In this document: positions 16,236-24,770 of the stretch, in pieces | Numbering within the stretch: the stretch's first letter is position 1 | Layout: every line of letters begins with the position of its first letter | Assembly (NCBI RefSeq): GCF_016865485.1 | Contig: NZ_AP024452.1 | Coordinates: 310,001 to 374,000 of the forward strand | From: Luteitalea sp. TBR-22 | GTDB taxonomy: Bacteria > Acidobacteriota > Vicinamibacteria > Vicinamibacterales > Vicinamibacteraceae | Reading direction: 5' to 3' | Length of the DNA stretch: 64,000 nucleotides | Translations under genes and position numbers: made by a program | Notes under the pieces: model-generated | Told to the model about the DNA's origin: nothing | Seen by the model: only the letters and a program-made list of their open reading frames with translations | Database searches by the model: none

Positions 16236-17453
16236 ATGCGGCGCGCCCTGCTCTCCGTGTTCGTGGCGTGCGCGTGCGCCGGAGCGCCGTGTGCCGCGCA
16301 GGAGGCCGGCGACGCACCGGCGGGCAACTGGTTCACGACGCACGTGCGCGTCTCGGGCGAGGCCAGCGCGTCCTACTCGACCAAGGCGCCGGAGGACGAG
16401 GGCTGGTTCAACTACTCCGACTACGAGACCAGCACGGTGCGGGCCGTGCGGCTGTCGCTGGTCGGCGAGGTGATGCTCTCGCCGCGTGTCGCGGTGCTCA
16501 CCGAGATTCGCACGCTGCAGTTCGACGCCCCGGAGGCCTACGCCCTGTACGTGCGCCTTCGCCCGTGGCTCTCGCAGGATCTCGACGTCCACCTCGGCCG
16601 CATCCCACCGACGTTCGGCGCCTTTCCGCGGCGCCTGTACGTGACCGACAACCCGCTGATCGGGCTGCCACTCGGGTACCAGTACCTGACGTCGACGCGC
16701 GCCGATGCCGTGCCCGCGACGACCGACGAACTGGCACGCATGCGGGGGCGCGGCTGGCTGGTCACCTACTCGGTCGGCAACACGACGCCGCAAGCCGGCC
16801 TGCCGATCGCCAACGCGCTGCGCTGGGACACCGGCGCGCAGGTGCGCTGGCAGAAGGGGCCGGTCACCACGTACGCGGCGGTCACGCAGGGCACTCTCGG
16901 CGACCCGCGCCTGACCGACGACAACGGCGGCGCGCAGGGCGCGGCCCGGGTCGTGTACGCCCCTCATCCCGTCGTCACGATCGGCGGTTCGGTGGCGCGT
17001 GGTCCCTACCTCGCGCGGTCGCTCGCGCCCGACCTGCCCGGCACGCCGCTGCGCAGCTACCACCAGCGCGCCTACGGCATCGACGCAGAGATCTCGCGCG
17101 ACCGCTGGATCGTGCGGGGCGAGGTGATCTGGAACCGCTGGGATCAGCCGGCCTTCGACCAGGACACCAGCCGCGATCTCGACGCGCAGGCCTCCTACGT
17201 GGAAGGTCGATATCGCCTCATTCCGGGCCTGTACGTGGCTGCGCGTGCCGAGCACCTGGGCTTCTCCCGGGTGACGACGTCCACCGGTACCGACGTCACG
17301 TGGGACGCGCCGGTGCGCCGGCTCGAGGTGGGCGCCGGCTGGACCGTCTGGCGGCATGTCCTCCTCAAGGGGGTGTGGCAGCGCAACCGCCGCGACGGCG
17401 GCCGCGTGCGGGCCAGCGACCTCGGCGCCGTGCAGGTGGTCACGTGGTTCTGA
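16236..17453 (+). CDS. Outer-membrane beta-barrel (porin-like) protein
   Basis: A 405-residue exported protein with a signal peptide (cleavage near AAQE, residue 22). It then has many short alternating strands rich in Arg, Tyr, Val and Gly, and ends in VVTWF. A terminal aromatic residue and amphipathic strands are typical of outer-membrane barrels. I do not recognise the exact family; it resembles selective porins loosely. It is the first gene of an operon with a copper protein, a sensor kinase and a regulator; the next gene overlaps it by 10 bp. It may let a redox-linked solute or metal into the periplasm, but that is inference from context. Confidence 0.72.
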   Translation: MRRALLSVFVACACAGAPCAAQEAGDAPAGNWFTTHVRVSGEASASYSTKAPEDEGWFNYSDYETSTVRAVRLSLVGEVMLSPRVAVLTEIRTLQFDAPEAYALYVRLRPWLSQDLDVHLGRIPPTFGAFPRRLYVTDNPLIGLPLGYQYLTSTRADAVPATTDELARMRGRGWLVTYSVGNTTPQAGLPIANALRWDTGAQVRWQKGPVTTYAAVTQGTLGDPRLTDDNGGAQGAARVVYAPHPVVTIGGSVARGPYLARSLAPDLPGTPLRSYHQRAYGIDAEISRDRWIVRGEVIWNRWDQPAFDQDTSRDLDAQASYVEGRYRLIPGLYVAARAEHLGFSRVTTSTGTDVTWDAPVRRLEVGAGWTVWRHVLLKGVWQRNRRDGGRVRASDLGAVQVVTWF

Positions 17454-18109
17454 GGCGCCGGCTGGCGTGCGCGAGCCTGGTGGCCGGCCTCGTGCTCGGC
17501 GCCTGGGCCCCGGCAGCGACGCAATCGGGCGCCACCATCCGCGGCCGCTTCACGCTGCCGCCGCCCAGGCCGGACGACCGCCGTCCGGCCCTGATCGACC
17601 CGCGCAACGCGGCGCGCACCCGCCAGCCGCGCGTCGGCGTCGTGTACCTCGAGGTCGCGCCGAGCGCGGCCTTCGAGGACGGCGTGTCGGCCCGGCAGGT
17701 GATGGACCAGCGCAACGAGACCTTCGTCCCGCACGTGCTGGCCGTGCGCACCGGCACGACGGTGGACTTCCCCAACAGCGATCGCGTGTACCACAACGTC
17801 TTCTCGCTGTCGGCGACGCGCCGCTTCGACCTCGGGCGCTACGCGGTCGGCCGGTCCAAGTCGGTGCGATTCGATCGCCCGGGGGTGGTGCGCGTGTTCT
17901 GCGACATCCACTCGCACATGAACGCCTTCATCCTGGTGTTCGCGCATCGATACTTCGACGTGACCCAGCCCGACGGCACCTTCCAGTTGCCGCCCGTGCC
18001 GCCGGGGACCTATACGGTCTCCGCCTGGTACGAGGGCGACGTCCTCGCCACGCGGCAGGTGGTGGTCCGCGCGGGCGAGACCGCGATCGTCGACCTGCAG
18101 GCCCCGTGA
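17444..18109 (+). CDS. Exported plastocyanin-like copper protein with Carboxypeptidase-regulatory-like tail
   Basis: The 221-residue protein has a signal peptide (to about residue 27) and a cupredoxin region with a full set of type-1 copper ligands: His117 (VYHNVFS), Cys153, His156 and Met159 in a CxxHxxM motif (CDIHSHM). A C-terminal segment (DGTFQLPPVPPGTYTVSAWYEG) looks like a carboxypeptidase regulatory-like beta sandwich. Start GTG 17444 overlaps the barrel gene by 10 bp, and the TGA overlaps the next ATG, so expression is tightly coupled. It is probably a periplasmic electron carrier or copper sensor-binding protein. Confidence 0.82.
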   Translation: MVLRRRLACASLVAGLVLGAWAPAATQSGATIRGRFTLPPPRPDDRRPALIDPRNAARTRQPRVGVVYLEVAPSAAFEDGVSARQVMDQRNETFVPHVLAVRTGTTVDFPNSDRVYHNVFSLSATRRFDLGRYAVGRSKSVRFDRPGVVRVFCDIHSHMNAFILVFAHRYFDVTQPDGTFQLPPVPPGTYTVSAWYEGDVLATRQVVVRAGETAIVDLQAP

Positions 18110-19862
18110 TGCGCGCGCTCGGGTCGCTGACCAATCGTCTGTTCCTGGTGTGCGTCGCCCTGTCGATCGCCTCGATCGGCGCGGCGATGCTGTTCGTCAG
18201 TGCCAGGCTGACGCGCGAGCACGACCGTGCCATGGCGACGCGTCAGGCCGAGACCGTGTCGCTCGTCGAGCGCCAGCGTCGCCTCCTGGTCGACACGTCG
18301 ACGCGCCTGTCGCGTCTGGTGGCCGACCTGCCCAAGCTCAAGGCCGCGCTCACCACCCGCGACGCCGCCACCGTCGCCCCCATCGTGTCCAGCTATCGCG
18401 AGGAGATCGGCGCAGACGTGCTGATCGTCAGCGACGACGCGGGCCGCGCCGTCTTCACGGCCGGCGACGTGCGCGGGCCGGTCGCCACGCAGAGCCTCGC
18501 GCTGCCGGCGGGCCACCCCCACGGGCAGCCCCGTTTCGTGACACTGGCGCACCCGCGCGGCATCCTGCAGCTGGTGACCGTGCCCATCACGATCGGCTTC
18601 GATCCGGTGGAGCAGCTCGGCCTGCTGTCGGTGGGCATGCTGCTCGACGAGGCCCAGGCGCGGGCGCTGCGCGCCTCCACCGGCAGCGAGCTCGCGTTCG
18701 CGGTCGGCGGCCGGGTGCTGGCGGCCTCGGTGGGCGCCGCGGCCCTGCCGTCACTGACGCAGGAGCTGGGCCAGGCGACGGAGGGGGCCCTGCCGATTGC
18801 CGGCGTCAACTACGCGTGGCACGCCGTGCCGCTGCAGCGGTTGCCCGGCGAGGCCCCGGAGGGGCGAGCCGACGCCAGGCTGGTGGTGCTCCACTCGACG
18901 ACCGAAGCCGAGGCGACCCTCCGGAGCGTCCGCGTGGCGCTGGCGGCCATCGCACTGCTGACGGCGCTGGTGGCCAGCGTCGCGAGCTTCGCCGTCGCGC
19001 GCACCATCACCCGCCCGCTTTCAGATCTCACCGCCTCGATGCGCGAGATGGCTCGCACCGGCACCCTCGCGCCTCTCAGGGCCGGCGACCGCGGCCGGGC
19101 CTGGGACGACGAGGACGTCCGCCTGCTGGCTGGCACCTTCCACACGCTGACGGCGGCCCTCGGCAGGTTCCAGGCGCAGGCCGCGGAGCGGGATCGCCTC
19201 ACGGCGCTCGGGCGCCTGTCCACGGTCATCGCGCACGAGATCCGCAACCCGCTGATGATCGTCCGCGGCGCGCTGCGCGGCCTGCGCCGCCAGGAGGATC
19301 CGCTGGTGGCAGACGCGGCCGCCGACATCGAGGAGCAGGTGCAGCGGCTCGATCGTGTCGTCAACGACGTCCTCGACTTCGCGCGCCCCGTGCAGCTCGA
19401 GGTGTCGCCGGCCTCGCTCCACGCCATCTGCCGCGAGGCCGTCGCCGCCTGCCTGGCCGCCGAGCCCGACCCGCCGGTCACGCTGCGGCTCGACGATGCC
19501 GCCGACCAGGTGCGCACCGACGCGCACCGTCTGCGGGCGGTGCTGGTCAACCTGGTGGCCAACGCCCGCGAGGCGGTGCGTGCGGCTGATCGCCCCCCGG
19601 GCGATGGGCTCGTCACGGTCGGCACGCGGCGTGCATCGGGTGCGGTGATGATCGAGGTGGTGGACAAGGGCACGGGCATCGACCCTGGGGTCGCCGGGCA
19701 CGTCTTCGAGCCGTACTTCACCACGCGCCGCAAGGGCACCGGCCTCGGGTTGGCCATCGCCCGCAACATCGTCGAGGGCCTCGGCGGGACGATCACCCTC
19801 GACAGCCGCCAGGGCGAGGGCACGACGGTCCGCCTGACGCTCCCGCAGGAGACGACGGAGAG

Positions 19863-19866
<4 letters not shown>
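18109..19866 (+). CDS. Membrane sensor histidine kinase with periplasmic Cache-like domain
   Basis: A 585-residue kinase. Transmembrane helix 1 lies at about 10-33, a periplasmic region of roughly 230 residues resembles a double-Cache sensor, helix 2 lies at about 270-293, then HAMP, HisKA with VIAHEIRNPL (phospho-acceptor His376) and HATPase_c with a KGTGLGLAIARNI G2 box. The ATG at 18109 overlaps the stop of the copper-protein gene, and its 3' end overlaps the regulator gene by 4 bp. The pair is therefore co-translated. The sensed signal may be copper or redox state, judging only from the neighbours. Confidence 0.92.
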
Positions 19867-21217
<1,351 letters not shown>

Positions 21218-21221
<4 letters not shown>

Positions 21222-21244
21222 CGTTTGACGTTTGACGTCTGACG
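21218..21244. repeat. Heptamer tandem repeat (TTGACGT unit)
   Basis: About four TTGACGT-like units start at the stop codon of the regulator gene and run into the intergenic region. The array resembles the decayed GTTGACG part of the repeat at 1462-1516. Confidence 0.7.
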
Positions 21245-21281
21245 AACGGCGAACTCGCACGTCGGTCGTCTCCGGCCGCAG

Positions 21282-21350: not shown

Positions 21351-21367
21351 CTTACGTGATACGTAAG
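21351..21367. promoter_or_regulatory. Activator site CTTAC-N7-GTAAG upstream of the CuA operon
   Basis: CTTACGT-GAT-ACGTAAG is a perfect inverted repeat centred about 92 bp before the -12 element of the sigma54 promoter. The same CTTAC-N7-GTAAG form recurs at 23486-23502, with an imperfect copy at 23466-23482. It is the likely enhancer for the regulator encoded at 19863-21221. Confidence 0.8.
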
Positions 21368-21438
21368 TGCTTTCGCGGGTCGTCTCCAGCACCGGGCCGC
21401 GACCGCGCGGATTGCGCCTGAACCCTCGATCCGGACTC

Positions 21439-21452
21439 GGCACGCGCCTTGC
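21439..21452 (+). promoter_or_regulatory. Sigma54 promoter of the CuA/cytochrome operon
   Basis: GGCACG-CGCC-TTGC matches the sigma54 core exactly, with GG and GC ten bases apart. The start site is expected near 21464. This argues that translation begins at GTG 21481, which has a GGAGGGAA ribosome-binding site, rather than at the upstream ATG 21466. Confidence 0.87.
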
Positions 21453-21480
21453 CCTTCCTGTCGGCATGGAGGGAAGCCCC

Positions 21481-21852
21481 GTGTTCCAGTCAGATTGGCG
21501 CCGCAGTGCGCTGGCCATGCCGTTCCTGGCGCTCGGCCTGGTCGTGTCGCTCGTCGCGCAGCAGGCGCCCCGCGTGATCGAGGTGAAGGCCAAGAAGTAC
21601 GACTTCGAACCGTCCACCATCGAGGTGGCGCAGGGCGAGCGCGTCGTGCTGCGCGTCACCTCTGTCGATCGCCTGCACGGCATCGGCATCAAGCGCTTCA
21701 AGGTGAACGCCGAGGTCCCGAAGGGCGAGACCGTCGACGTCGAGTTCGTGGCCGCCGAGGCCGGCACCTTCCCGGTGCTGTGCACCGAGGAGTGCGGCAA
21801 GGGGCACGACGACATGACCGGCACGCTCGTGGTGAAGGCGGTGGCCAAGTGA
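21481..21852 (+). CDS. Exported cupredoxin with CuA-type copper site
   Basis: This 123-residue protein is little more than a membrane anchor or signal (about 9-28) plus a cytochrome-oxidase-subunit-II-like cupredoxin domain. The CuA ligands are complete: His66 (RLHGIGI), then Cys101, Glu103, Cys105, His109 and Met112 in CTEECGKGHDDM. A lone CuA domain suggests a periplasmic electron carrier or copper relay, not a full oxidase, since no subunit I is nearby. The start is set by the sigma54 promoter position and the GGAGGGAA site. It overlaps the next gene by 4 bp. Confidence 0.85.
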   Translation: MFQSDWRRSALAMPFLALGLVVSLVAQQAPRVIEVKAKKYDFEPSTIEVAQGERVVLRVTSVDRLHGIGIKRFKVNAEVPKGETVDVEFVAAEAGTFPVLCTEECGKGHDDMTGTLVVKAVAK

Positions 21853-22310
21853 AGGCGTCCTCCCTCCGCCGCGCCGCCCTCGCCGTCTCGCTCGGCCTGC
21901 TCGCCTTCGCGAGCGGCTGCGACGAGAAGCTCTCCGACATCGCCGGCCCGTCGCCGGGCCTGACCCCGACCTACTCGAGCATCTCGCAGAACATCTTCAC
22001 CAGCACCGACGCGTCCGGGCGCACGGCCTGCACGCAGTGCCACACCAACCAGGGACGCACGCCGGCGGCCAACCTGAACCTGACGACCGAGGCCGGCTAC
22101 GCCCAGCTGGTCAACGTCGCCAGCGTGCAGAAGCCGGGCGCCGTGCGCGTCATCCCCGGCGACGCCGACAACAGCTACCTGGTGCAGAAGCTCGAAGGCA
22201 CGCCCGGCATCATCGGCCAGCGCATGCCCCGGAACGCCGGGCCGTTCCTCACCGAGGGACAGATGCTGATCATCCGCCGCTGGATCAACCAGGGCGCGCA
22301 GAACAACTGA
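21849..22310 (+). CDS. c-type cytochrome lipoprotein
   Basis: A 153-residue protein starting at GTG 21849, overlapping the CuA gene stop. The N-terminus is a lipoprotein-type signal with Cys24 after FASG. One haem-binding CTQCH motif (Cys61, Cys64, His65) follows, and a later Met in GQRMPRNAGPF may be the sixth ligand. The segment ending MLIIRRWINQGAQNN is typical of small cytochromes tethered to envelope membranes. Its position between a CuA protein and a beta-barrel suggests electron transfer across the periplasm. The partner is not identified. Confidence 0.83.
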   Translation: MKASSLRRAALAVSLGLLAFASGCDEKLSDIAGPSPGLTPTYSSISQNIFTSTDASGRTACTQCHTNQGRTPAANLNLTTEAGYAQLVNVASVQKPGAVRVIPGDADNSYLVQKLEGTPGIIGQRMPRNAGPFLTEGQMLIIRRWINQGAQNN

Positions 22311-22317
22311 GGCGCAC

Positions 22318-23262
22318 ATGAAGACGACATTCCTTGCCACTGCGCTCACGTTGATCGCGATCGGCGCGCTGCCTGCGGCGGCGCAGGAGACGCGCACCGA
22401 GCCCGCCTCGACACCCAAGCCCGCCGTCGAGGGCGCCGCCGCCCCCGCGACGCCGACCACGCCCGCGACCGCCGAGGACCCGAAGCCCGCGGCCGATGCA
22501 ACCGCCGTGGTCCAGGACGACGAGGACGATCCGGATCTCGACGTCAACCCGGCGCAGCCCGACTTCACCATCGTCGGCCTGCCGACCTCGCTGCGCATGC
22601 CGCGCGGCAAGTTCGCCTTCCGCGTGACGCACCGCTTCGGGCGCCCGCTCGACGACGGGAACTTCGGCGACCTGGCGGCCGACCTGTTCGGCCTCGACGC
22701 CGGCGGCCTGATCGGCCTCGAGGTGCGCTACGGCCTGTTGAAGGGCACGCAGGTCGGCGTCCTGCGCACCAGCGACCGCACGATCCAGTTCTTCGCCCAG
22801 CAGCAGATCGCGCCGCAGGAGAAGTTCGGCGTCGGGCTGGCGCTGAACCTGACGGCCGACGGCACCAACAACTTCCAGGACAGCTACTCGCCCGGCATCG
22901 GGCTGATCGTGTCGCGCGAGATCGGCAAGCGTGCAGCGGTCTACGTCGAGCCGACGTGGGTGAACAACACCAACACGTTGCCGAGCGAACTGGTGGACGA
23001 CAACAGCTCGTTCCTGCTCGGCATCGGCGGTCGCATCCGCATGACGCGTCGCTCCTACCTGGTGGCGGAGGTGGCGCCACGCGTCAGCGGCTACGACGAG
23101 GGCCGCACGCACGGCGCCATCGGTCTCGAGATGCGCGCCGGCAACCACGCGTTCCAGTTGAACTTCTCCAACGGCCTGCAGACGACGATGGGCCAGATTG
23201 CCAGGGGCGGCACGCCCGACGACTGGTTCATCGGATTCAACATCTCGCGCAAGTTCTGGTAG
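22318..23262 (+). CDS. DUF5777-like outer-membrane beta-barrel protein
   Basis: A 314-residue exported protein: signal peptide (to about 23), a Pro/Ala/Thr-rich linker (about 24-70), then a barrel that begins with the family-like LPTSLRMPRGKFAFRVTHRFG segment and ends in NISRKFW, with a terminal aromatic residue. DUF5777 proteins are putative outer-membrane barrels of unknown role, often near haem and redox genes. The gene starts 8 bp after the cytochrome gene and completes the sigma54-driven operon. Confidence 0.8.
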   Translation: MKTTFLATALTLIAIGALPAAAQETRTEPASTPKPAVEGAAAPATPTTPATAEDPKPAADATAVVQDDEDDPDLDVNPAQPDFTIVGLPTSLRMPRGKFAFRVTHRFGRPLDDGNFGDLAADLFGLDAGGLIGLEVRYGLLKGTQVGVLRTSDRTIQFFAQQQIAPQEKFGVGLALNLTADGTNNFQDSYSPGIGLIVSREIGKRAAVYVEPTWVNNTNTLPSELVDDNSSFLLGIGGRIRMTRRSYLVAEVAPRVSGYDEGRTHGAIGLEMRAGNHAFQLNFSNGLQTTMGQIARGGTPDDWFIGFNISRKFW

Positions 23263-23465
23263 CGCGACCGAGGTTGGAATCGTTGCGGCCGGCCGGCCGG
23301 TCGGGTGGGCGCCCGGCCGTCGCCGGTCCGCTCGCGGCGGTTCCTTCCGCAGCCTGGAGGGTCACGGGTGTCCCCGCACCTGCCGACCCTCCTTGCTGCG
23401 GTTCACTTGCCTGCGGGGCATCGCTCGACGGCTCACGGGGGGCGCGGGCCCTGCCTCGTCAATCG

Positions 23466-23502
23466 CTTACATCCCACGAAAGCGGCTTACGTGTCGGGTA
23501 AG
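23466..23502. promoter_or_regulatory. Tandem activator sites CTTAC-N7-G(A/T)AAG
   Basis: The first site is CTTAC-ATCCCAC-GAAAG (23466-23482) and the second CTTAC-GTGTCGG-GTAAG (23486-23502). Their centres are exactly 20 bp apart, two helical turns. They match the single site at 21351-21367 and lie 73 and 93 bp before the -12 element at 23567. Confidence 0.75.
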
Positions 23503-23553
23503 GGCGGGCGCCGCACGGATCACGGAACACGGGTGATCTCGCCCGCACGGATC

Positions 23554-23567
23554 GGCACGGTGCTTGC
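23554..23567 (+). promoter_or_regulatory. Sigma54 promoter without an intact downstream gene
   Basis: GGCACG-GTGC-TTGC is an exact core match. With its tandem upstream sites it has everything needed for activation, yet it points at a short hydrophobic frame and then antisense through the DUF3137 gene. It may drive a small RNA, a short peptide or a gene that has been lost. Confidence 0.8.
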
Positions 23568-23687
23568 TGTTGATGTGGGTGGTTCAAGGGATCGGCGGGC
23601 TGGCGATCTTGGCGGTGGGTTGGGCAGCCGGCAGCCAGGCCAGTCCGTCGATTTCCTTGCGCCTTCGGCCTTGCGACGCGCTCGCGC

Positions 23688-24707
23688 TCATGGCGCGGTC
23701 ATGCGGGCCGTCACCGCCAGGGCGATGGTATCGACCGCGTCCATGAACTCCCCCATCTCCACGTAGCGGTCCTCGTCGAGGCGGCCTGCCAGGTCACCGA
23801 ACCACGCCGCCCAGCGCTCCAGCACGAGGAACACCTCACCGTGGGCCACCGCGAGGCGGACGCTGCGCCCCTGCTCGCGCAAGGCGTTCAGGACCCCGAT
23901 CACGTCGGGAGTCAGCACGAGCGCGGCGACGGCGGCCGAATCGGTCGTCGCCACGTAGTCGTCGTGCAGCCATGCCGGGGGCGCGCTGCCCGGCACGCGC
24001 GACAGCATCGCCGGGGTCACGTCCTTGTGGCCGGGTAGCGGCTCGAGCCCGAGCTGATCGGTATCGCGTCGGCCGACGCGCACGTGCCCCGGCACCTGCA
24101 CCGGCATGGTCGCAATCGCCACGACACCCCGGACCACGGAGATGCGCGTCGTGTCGCCGTCCCGCTGGGTGGTGACCTCGGCGGCGTCGACGCGCGCCAT
24201 CTGCACGCGGATGCCTCCGGTGGACCACTTCACGAGGTGACGACAGCCGTACTCGTTGGCGCCGGGGACGAGCGCGGACCGGCGGATCCAGCCGCGATCG
24301 ACGGCCGCGCCCTTCTTGTACGAGGCCCGGGGACGGAGGGTCGCGAACACGCGCGGCAGCACGTCGCGCTCGAAGGTGTCGGCCGACGCCTTGAAACGGG
24401 CGGCGCGGCCGCCATCCAGCCAGTGCGCGGCGCGTCGCACGCCGAGCACGAGCAGCACCGCCAGGCCGACGACCTGCCAGCTCGCCGGGTCGCCCCACCA
24501 GGTGTCCGGCCACGGGTGACGCACCAGCAGCGCGATCGCCGTGCCCCAGCCCACCAGGCCGAGGACCAGGCCCGGCATCATGCCGGCCATCAGCGATGCC
24601 TGTTCGCTCGAGAGCGCCTCGATCGCCGGGCGCAGGGCGCGCGCGTACTCGGCGCGCAGGTGGGCGCGCCGCGCCTCGCGTGCTGCCTGATCCGGCGTGC
24701 TGGTCAC
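23688..24707 (-). CDS. DUF3137-like membrane protein
   Basis: This 339-residue protein has two close membrane spans (about 39-60 and 75-94) after an Arg/Ala-rich helix, then a soluble domain with the RASYKKGAAVDRGWIRRSALVPG segment and a GLEPLPGHKDVTP motif seen in DUF3137-type proteins. Their function is unknown. The start is uncertain: GTG at 24707 fits the family N-terminus (TSTPDQAAREARR), while another GTG lies at 24722. It precedes no obvious partner; grpE lies upstream on the same strand, 63 bp away. Confidence 0.75.
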   Translation of the reverse strand: MTSTPDQAAREARRAHLRAEYARALRPAIEALSSEQASLMAGMMPGLVLGLVGWGTAIALLVRHPWPDTWWGDPASWQVVGLAVLLVLGVRRAAHWLDGGRAARFKASADTFERDVLPRVFATLRPRASYKKGAAVDRGWIRRSALVPGANEYGCRHLVKWSTGGIRVQMARVDAAEVTTQRDGDTTRISVVRGVVAIATMPVQVPGHVRVGRRDTDQLGLEPLPGHKDVTPAMLSRVPGSAPPAWLHDDYVATTDSAAVAALVLTPDVIGVLNALREQGRSVRLAVAHGEVFLVLERWAAWFGDLAGRLDEDRYVEMGEFMDAVDTIALAVTARMTAP

Positions 24708-24770
24708 GCCCGCAGCGTACACGAGACGGAAAGGCCGGCCCGGCTCCGACGCGTGTCTGGCCGGGACGTC

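Follow-up and report, generated by a model that had tools for sequence, protein, structure and literature searches.

The 64,000-nucleotide stretch of Luteitalea sp. TBR-22 DNA analysed here (the window, 310001-374000 of a 6,468,984-bp, one-contig genome) appears to hold the core of an undescribed Vicinamibacteria two-component sigma54 regulon. Helically stepped palindromic enhancers would serve genes for stand-alone CuA, mono-haem and beta-barrel proteins, and a new structured small RNA would have been recruited in one genus as a post-transcriptional copper/redox arm; taking this description as a whole, we lean slightly towards it. We have good confidence in the underlying model, a predicted chain from kinase through regulator and palindromes to sigma54 promoters, including the RNA and the electron-transfer outcome, that was built from sequence data. 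In this model, a membrane kinase (18109-19866) would detect an envelope cue and phosphorylate an NtrC-type regulator (19863-21221), dimers of which would occupy TTAC-N7-GTAA palindromes, often as tandem pairs 19-20 bp apart. The regulator would assemble on these palindromes, which precede sigma54 promoters by close to whole numbers of helical turns, and open the promoter. Three promoters of the window genome carry the code and would drive an operon for a CuA protein, a mono-haem lipoprotein and a DUF5777 barrel, a YceI-like gene at 1,165 kb, and a hairpin RNA. Since the protein products are copper or haem carriers and envelope proteins, the likely outcome would be a remodelling of periplasmic or outer-membrane electron transfer. 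The genes, the sites, their conservation, phasing and co-occurrence are read from the DNA; binding, activation, the signal, expression of the RNA and the electron-transfer role we infer.

The kinase cluster comprises the following genes.

16236-17453, + strand: 405-aa protein, first gene of the cluster, without a Pfam or NCBIfam family
17462-18109, + strand: protein with a plastocyanin-like (type-1 copper) and a carboxypeptidase-regulatory-like domain; start approximate
18109-19866, + strand: sensor histidine kinase with a dCache_3 sensory domain (HisKA, HATPase_c, dCache_3)
19863-21221, + strand: NtrC-family response regulator with receiver (PF00072), sigma54-interaction AAA+ (PF00158) and Fis-type HTH (PF02954) domains

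All three domains of the regulator score above cut-off, its PDB relatives are NtrC-family proteins, and a GAFTGA motif was read by eye. The genome also carries a sigma54 gene (Sigma54_DBD, E 1.7e-64), and -24/-12 promoters are present at the targets too. The 17462-18109 protein matches PF13620 with 34.3 bits and Copper-bind with 19.1 bits, under the 21.2 cut-off of that family, and aligns with the cupredoxin part of copper nitrite reductase at E 1.3e-5. In the fetched loci, a protein like the 405-aa one adjoins most regulator orthologs. A short direct repeat, gacgtttgacgtttgacgtctgacg, lies immediately 3' of the regulator stop codon (21220-21245 of the window).

Two sigma54-type promoters of the form GGCACG-N4-TTGC, GGCACGCGCCTTGC from 21439 and GGCACGGTGCTTGC from 23554, are present exactly as the initial annotation described them. 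It had also reported three CTTAC-N7-GTAAG inverted repeats; those at 21351, CTTACGTGATACGTAAG, and 23486, CTTACGTGTCGGGTAAG, are indeed exact palindromes, and the one at 23466, CTTACATCCCACGAAAG, is off by one base in its right arm. These sites are as follows.

21351-21367, + strand: operator CTTACGTGATACGTAAG, exact; its TTAC starts 87 bp ahead of the promoter GG
21439-21452, + strand: sigma54 promoter GGCACGCGCCTTGC, with a predicted start near 21464
23466-23482, + strand: distal member of the second promoter's operator pair, with one mismatch; the tandem partner is kept in two congeners, G001 and G004
23486-23502, + strand: proximal member of that pair, exact; its TTAC begins 67 bp ahead of the promoter GG
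23554-23567, + strand: second sigma54 promoter GGCACGGTGCTTGC, with a predicted start near 23579; conserved in G001 and G004

When up to two mismatches are allowed, the palindrome occurs 4 times in the window (3.17 expected) and the promoter motif 24 times (29.08 expected). Both counts are at chance level, and for this reason neither motif was retained singly as evidence. The signal beyond chance rests instead on the rarity of the palindrome and on the combination of operator with promoter. Exact CTTAC-N7-GTAAG occurs three times in the whole genome, twice inside 2.2 kb of the locus and once at 1,165,063. When the genome was scanned for TTAC-N7-GTAA with GGC-N7-TTGC 50-80 bp further on, the same three places came up, and the 1,165-kb site has a tandem operator 20 bp on and a sigma54-like promoter. 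It could be argued that the matches arise by chance in a GC-rich genome, as the lack of enrichment of either motif in the window would allow. However, when we searched 162 genomes of the order, the strict composite (operator plus promoter) was found in 46 and its reversed-pattern control in 0. Together with the adjacency and the phasing described below, this makes chance hardly conceivable as an explanation.

With a threshold of E 1e-140, regulator orthologs (58-92% identity outside the window genome) were found in 78 of the 162 genomes. The composite is present in 41 of the 78 regulator-positive and 5 of the 84 regulator-negative genomes (Fisher p 1.4e-11, uncorrected for kinship), and the strict form is absent from the other 37 regulator-positive genomes. 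Of the 63 distinct composite promoters, 36 share the strand of the regulator and follow it by no more than 1.1 kb; the distance is 104-254 bp for 35 of these and 837 for the remaining one. The genome search proposed in the initial annotation returned the motif conserved upstream of orthologous CuA operons, with these 36 promoters just behind the regulator. With up to one half-site mismatch allowed, a composite lies within 1 kb behind the regulator in 24 of 32 regulator-selected loci, and such a near-match is absent from the other 8. This count derives from 28 of 37 loci, which becomes 24 of 33 when the motif-chosen L079, L080, L082 and L083 are set aside and 24 of 32 when L065, the sequence of which stops 57 bases past the regulator, is removed; L077 was excluded as a partial regulator copy. 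Those 37 loci (1.27 Mb, single strand) hold five composites elsewhere; four coincide with regulon sites, and the fifth, in L072, has no explanation. Of four genomes from the class but not the order, three have ortholog and motif together and the fourth has neither. Two of the three carry the motif directly after the regulator, and the third carries it about 3.6 kb off, on the other strand.

Because the composite co-occurs with the regulator and its promoters lie directly behind the regulator gene, the identification of 19863-21221 as the putative reader of the palindromes is well supported, and this proposal of the initial annotation gains from the recurrence of the pattern in a second lineage of the class. 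The alternative, that another NtrC-family activator of the cell binds the palindromes and the neighbouring regulator is merely linked to them, has some points in its favour. The cell has many such activators, with 28 regulator-like matches scored in the window genome, and a single family includes four genomes (G047, G069, G081 and G086; 400-940 contigs each) in which composites precede DUF5777 or CHRD genes and the ortholog search found no regulator. Against it, the 36 promoters directly behind the regulator were found blind to its position, and the composite tracks the regulator over the 162 genomes and in the second class lineage, so that we regard a different binder as quite improbable. The composite in another regulator-negative genome, G090, looks like chance. 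Outside the class, the composite was found in 12 of 350 genomes and the reversed control in 7, which we treated as background. Composite matches were also seen in G438, G368, G292, G515 and G260, which belong to a distant family of the same phylum (f36); four of the five have AT-rich TTAC...CGTAAAG operators, and a related regulator rather than chance is perhaps responsible. The operator code is real, and its predictive value extends across a bacterial order and to another lineage of the same class. An uncharacterised kinase-regulator pair that is present in 78 of the 162 genomes thereby gains a readable target list.

We next compiled 66 promoters with 86 distinct operator sequences, a collection that takes in loci chosen by motif. 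The half-site extends to TTACG in 59 of the 86 operators and to CGTAA in 46, and tandem operators are spaced by 19 bp (15 times) or 20 bp (5 times). Measured from the T of TTAC to the G of GGCA, the distances cluster at 65-70, 76-79, 86-90 and 98 bp and are sparse up to 117; at the promoters of the window genome they are 87, 67 and 89/69 bp. A period of 10.25 bp fits best, with a vector strength of 0.69 that none of 5000 smoothed-null draws attained, in a set that comes partly from a search restricted to 65-95 bp and that contains related orthologs. Sixty of the 66 best operators lie within 2.5 bp of the phase, and the six off-phase distances are 70, 72, 74, 101, 103 and 114. Likewise, 48 of the 50 proximal operators at 65-95 bp occupy 18 of the 31 possible positions, in windows that were picked post hoc. 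Operator-promoter distances step by helical turns, and this 10-bp stepping across dozens of loci amounts to a natural experiment on enhancer-promoter geometry.

Behind the first promoter lies the operon for which the initial annotation had named a CuA protein and a cytochrome, and that part of its description stood; the second promoter has no evident + strand gene behind it. The genes of the operon are as follows.

21481-21852, + strand: secreted stand-alone CuA protein (PF13473)
21849-22310, + strand: lipoprotein-like, with a lipobox and a single CXXCH haem motif (CTQCH), both seen by eye
22318-23262, + strand: DUF5777 membrane beta-barrel protein (PF19089, E 2.8e-31)

The CuA protein may start at GTG 21481, which is preceded by GGAGGGA, or at ATG 21466. 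It aligns with the ba3 oxidase CuA domain at E 6e-18, and its H, C, C, H and M, which we take to be the copper ligands, fall at matching positions. The alignment thus contains the full CuA ligand set in a cupredoxin fold, a likeness to subunit II of cytochrome c oxidase (Thermus ba3; 1ehk, 2cua). Unlike subunit II, the Luteitalea protein is a stand-alone secreted protein, and its operon contains no oxidase subunit. The c-type cytochrome matches of the 21849-22310 protein are weak (TIGR03806, E 2.4e-5; PSCyt1, E 0.0032, under cut-off). CuA, mono-haem lipoprotein or DUF5777-like genes follow 45 of the 66 compiled promoters. The remaining 21 include three RNA promoters and 15 whose first gene was scanned against Pfam or matched by BLAST; these 15 comprise genes for plastocyanin- or cupredoxin-like (several below cut-off), YceI, CHRD and GSDH proteins, one for a histidine kinase, and three without any family (in L144, L146 and L149). 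The last three of the 21, S42, S61 and S65, lie outside the scan. Some target families score under their Pfam cut-off, among them that of the gene behind the 1,165-kb site, the product of which matches YceI weakly (E 0.0018) and, by eye, begins like a signal peptide. A small regulon of predicted copper/redox envelope proteins is supported by these targets. Copper or redox state may be the signal, and the products might form one dedicated electron-transfer chain. The targets now link the barrel family DUF5777, on which a literature search found no paper, with proteins carrying CuA and c-type haem.

Of the studied systems found, the nearest is CorSR of Myxococcus xanthus, a two-component pair that acts with sigma54 in copper tolerance (PMC3707914). 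CorSR likewise pairs a kinase with a sigma54-dependent response regulator containing receiver, Sigma54_activat and HTH_8 domains, and its curA operon includes a PF13473 cupredoxin-like protein and a c-type cytochrome-like protein, with products that are mostly envelope proteins; it differs in that the operon also includes a copper ATPase and a multicopper oxidase (PMC3707914). The Luteitalea system has a CuA-ligand protein, a DUF5777 barrel, a YceI-like target and defined operators, and no pump was seen. The system might serve mainly copper detoxification in the manner of CorSR rather than electron transfer, a reading for which the shared family speaks, as the CorSR operon has a Cupredoxin_1 (PF13473) protein (PMC3707914) and the local CuA protein matches PF13473. 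However, neither the copper ATPase nor the multicopper oxidase of a CorSR-type operon was found among the operon proteins or the first genes of 16 further scanned targets, and CuA and c-type haem are electron-carrier centres. We consider detoxification a possible but rather unlikely main role and favour electron transfer.

No + strand gene is evident behind the 23554 promoter, and the gene at 23688-24722 runs on the - strand. A reading of this promoter as that of a protein operon is not supported; a conserved hairpin lies behind it, and a structured RNA is the more likely product.

23579-23662, + strand: candidate small RNA with an imperfect hairpin at 23585-23659 and a core of 28 bases identical in three genomes

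Small RNAs that depend on sigma54 include CrcZ, Qrr and GlmY. The congeners G001 and G004, which have the regulator, carry tandem operators and promoter at the same place, before a convergent grpE (GrpE in the window, E 9e-36). Regulator, composite and RNA are all missing from the remaining two congeners, G002 and G003. In three genomes a predicted sigma54 promoter with activator sites stands with no coding gene behind it. The core is the sole 20-column stretch of full identity in the intergenic alignment, where other stretches range from 0 to 0.75. The sequences of the window genome, G001 and G004 adopt the same long hairpin fold, with z-scores of -2.48 (window), -4.07 (G004) and -6.42 (G001), the latter two including a terminator-like hairpin. 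In the three-sequence alignment 97.5% of cells are paired, as against at most 50.6% when it is slid. Covariation among the three sequences is weak: 3 pairs are changed on both sides, which 130 of 500 shuffles matched, and 78 of 500 did so by another measure. The terminator-like hairpin follows the conserved one in G001 and G004, a clear T run being missing by eye, and is absent from the window genome, where the - strand gene begins at that point. Replacement of the terminator by a dispersed repeat was excluded, as the sequence past the hairpin is single-copy in the window genome. The - strand gene, which encodes a 344-aa protein without a Pfam family, lies between the RNA and grpE and was not found in the corresponding loci of the two congeners.

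The second promoter could instead yield a micro-protein, since by eye a short frame (MAVGWAAGS...) spans the core. Another possible product is a long transcript running antisense into the convergent gene, which starts at once in the window genome where no terminator-like hairpin intervenes. By eye, however, the frame meets no stop ahead of the terminator-like hairpin of either G001 or G004, and the core is identical at every base while all three sequences fold alike. We judge either product unlikely, and the 23554 promoter probably drives a candidate sigma54-dependent small RNA. Such an RNA would give Acidobacteriota a new regulator that lends itself to clean testing.

Rfam covariance models gave 0 matches up to E=1 against L005, L085 and L086. 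A covariance search of 161 genomes gave 22 matches at E <=0.5, of which three are strong (7.1e-20 or better) and come from the window genome, G001 and G004, and 41 fetched loci gave 35 weak matches to the RNA model (best E 0.19). The next match after the strong three, in G006 (E 6.2e-4), was rejected, as it lies in a coding region with no sigma54 promoter by eye. When a 23-base core was searched with up to 3 mismatches, 4 of 100 genomes matched, namely three congeners and G008; the G008 match, with 3 mismatches and no promoter by eye, was also rejected. An exact 20-mer contig scan, which may omit records of or near the window genome, returned four records, the G004 contig and three without promoter context by eye. 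No report of the regulon or the RNA was found among the literature matches listed, and a term search of PMC12316311 found neither "Acidobacteri" nor "copper".

By comparison, the regulon would be of a sigma54 two-component type already represented by CorSR and CbrAB-CrcZ. Pseudomonas CbrB, a sigma54 response regulator, drives the sRNAs CrcZ and CrcY (PMC6296734); its half-sites TGTTAC and GTAACA resemble TTAC and GTAA, and its sites share one helix face. The CbrB sites differ in being described as three non-palindromic subsites with centres 20-25 bp apart (PMC6296734), whereas the Luteitalea system has compact 15-17 bp palindromes, an RNA unrelated by Rfam and redox-protein targets. A TTAC-N8-GTAA sequence, one off the operator spacing, was seen upstream of the weak RNA-model match in G006 (L170, about 1465-1490).
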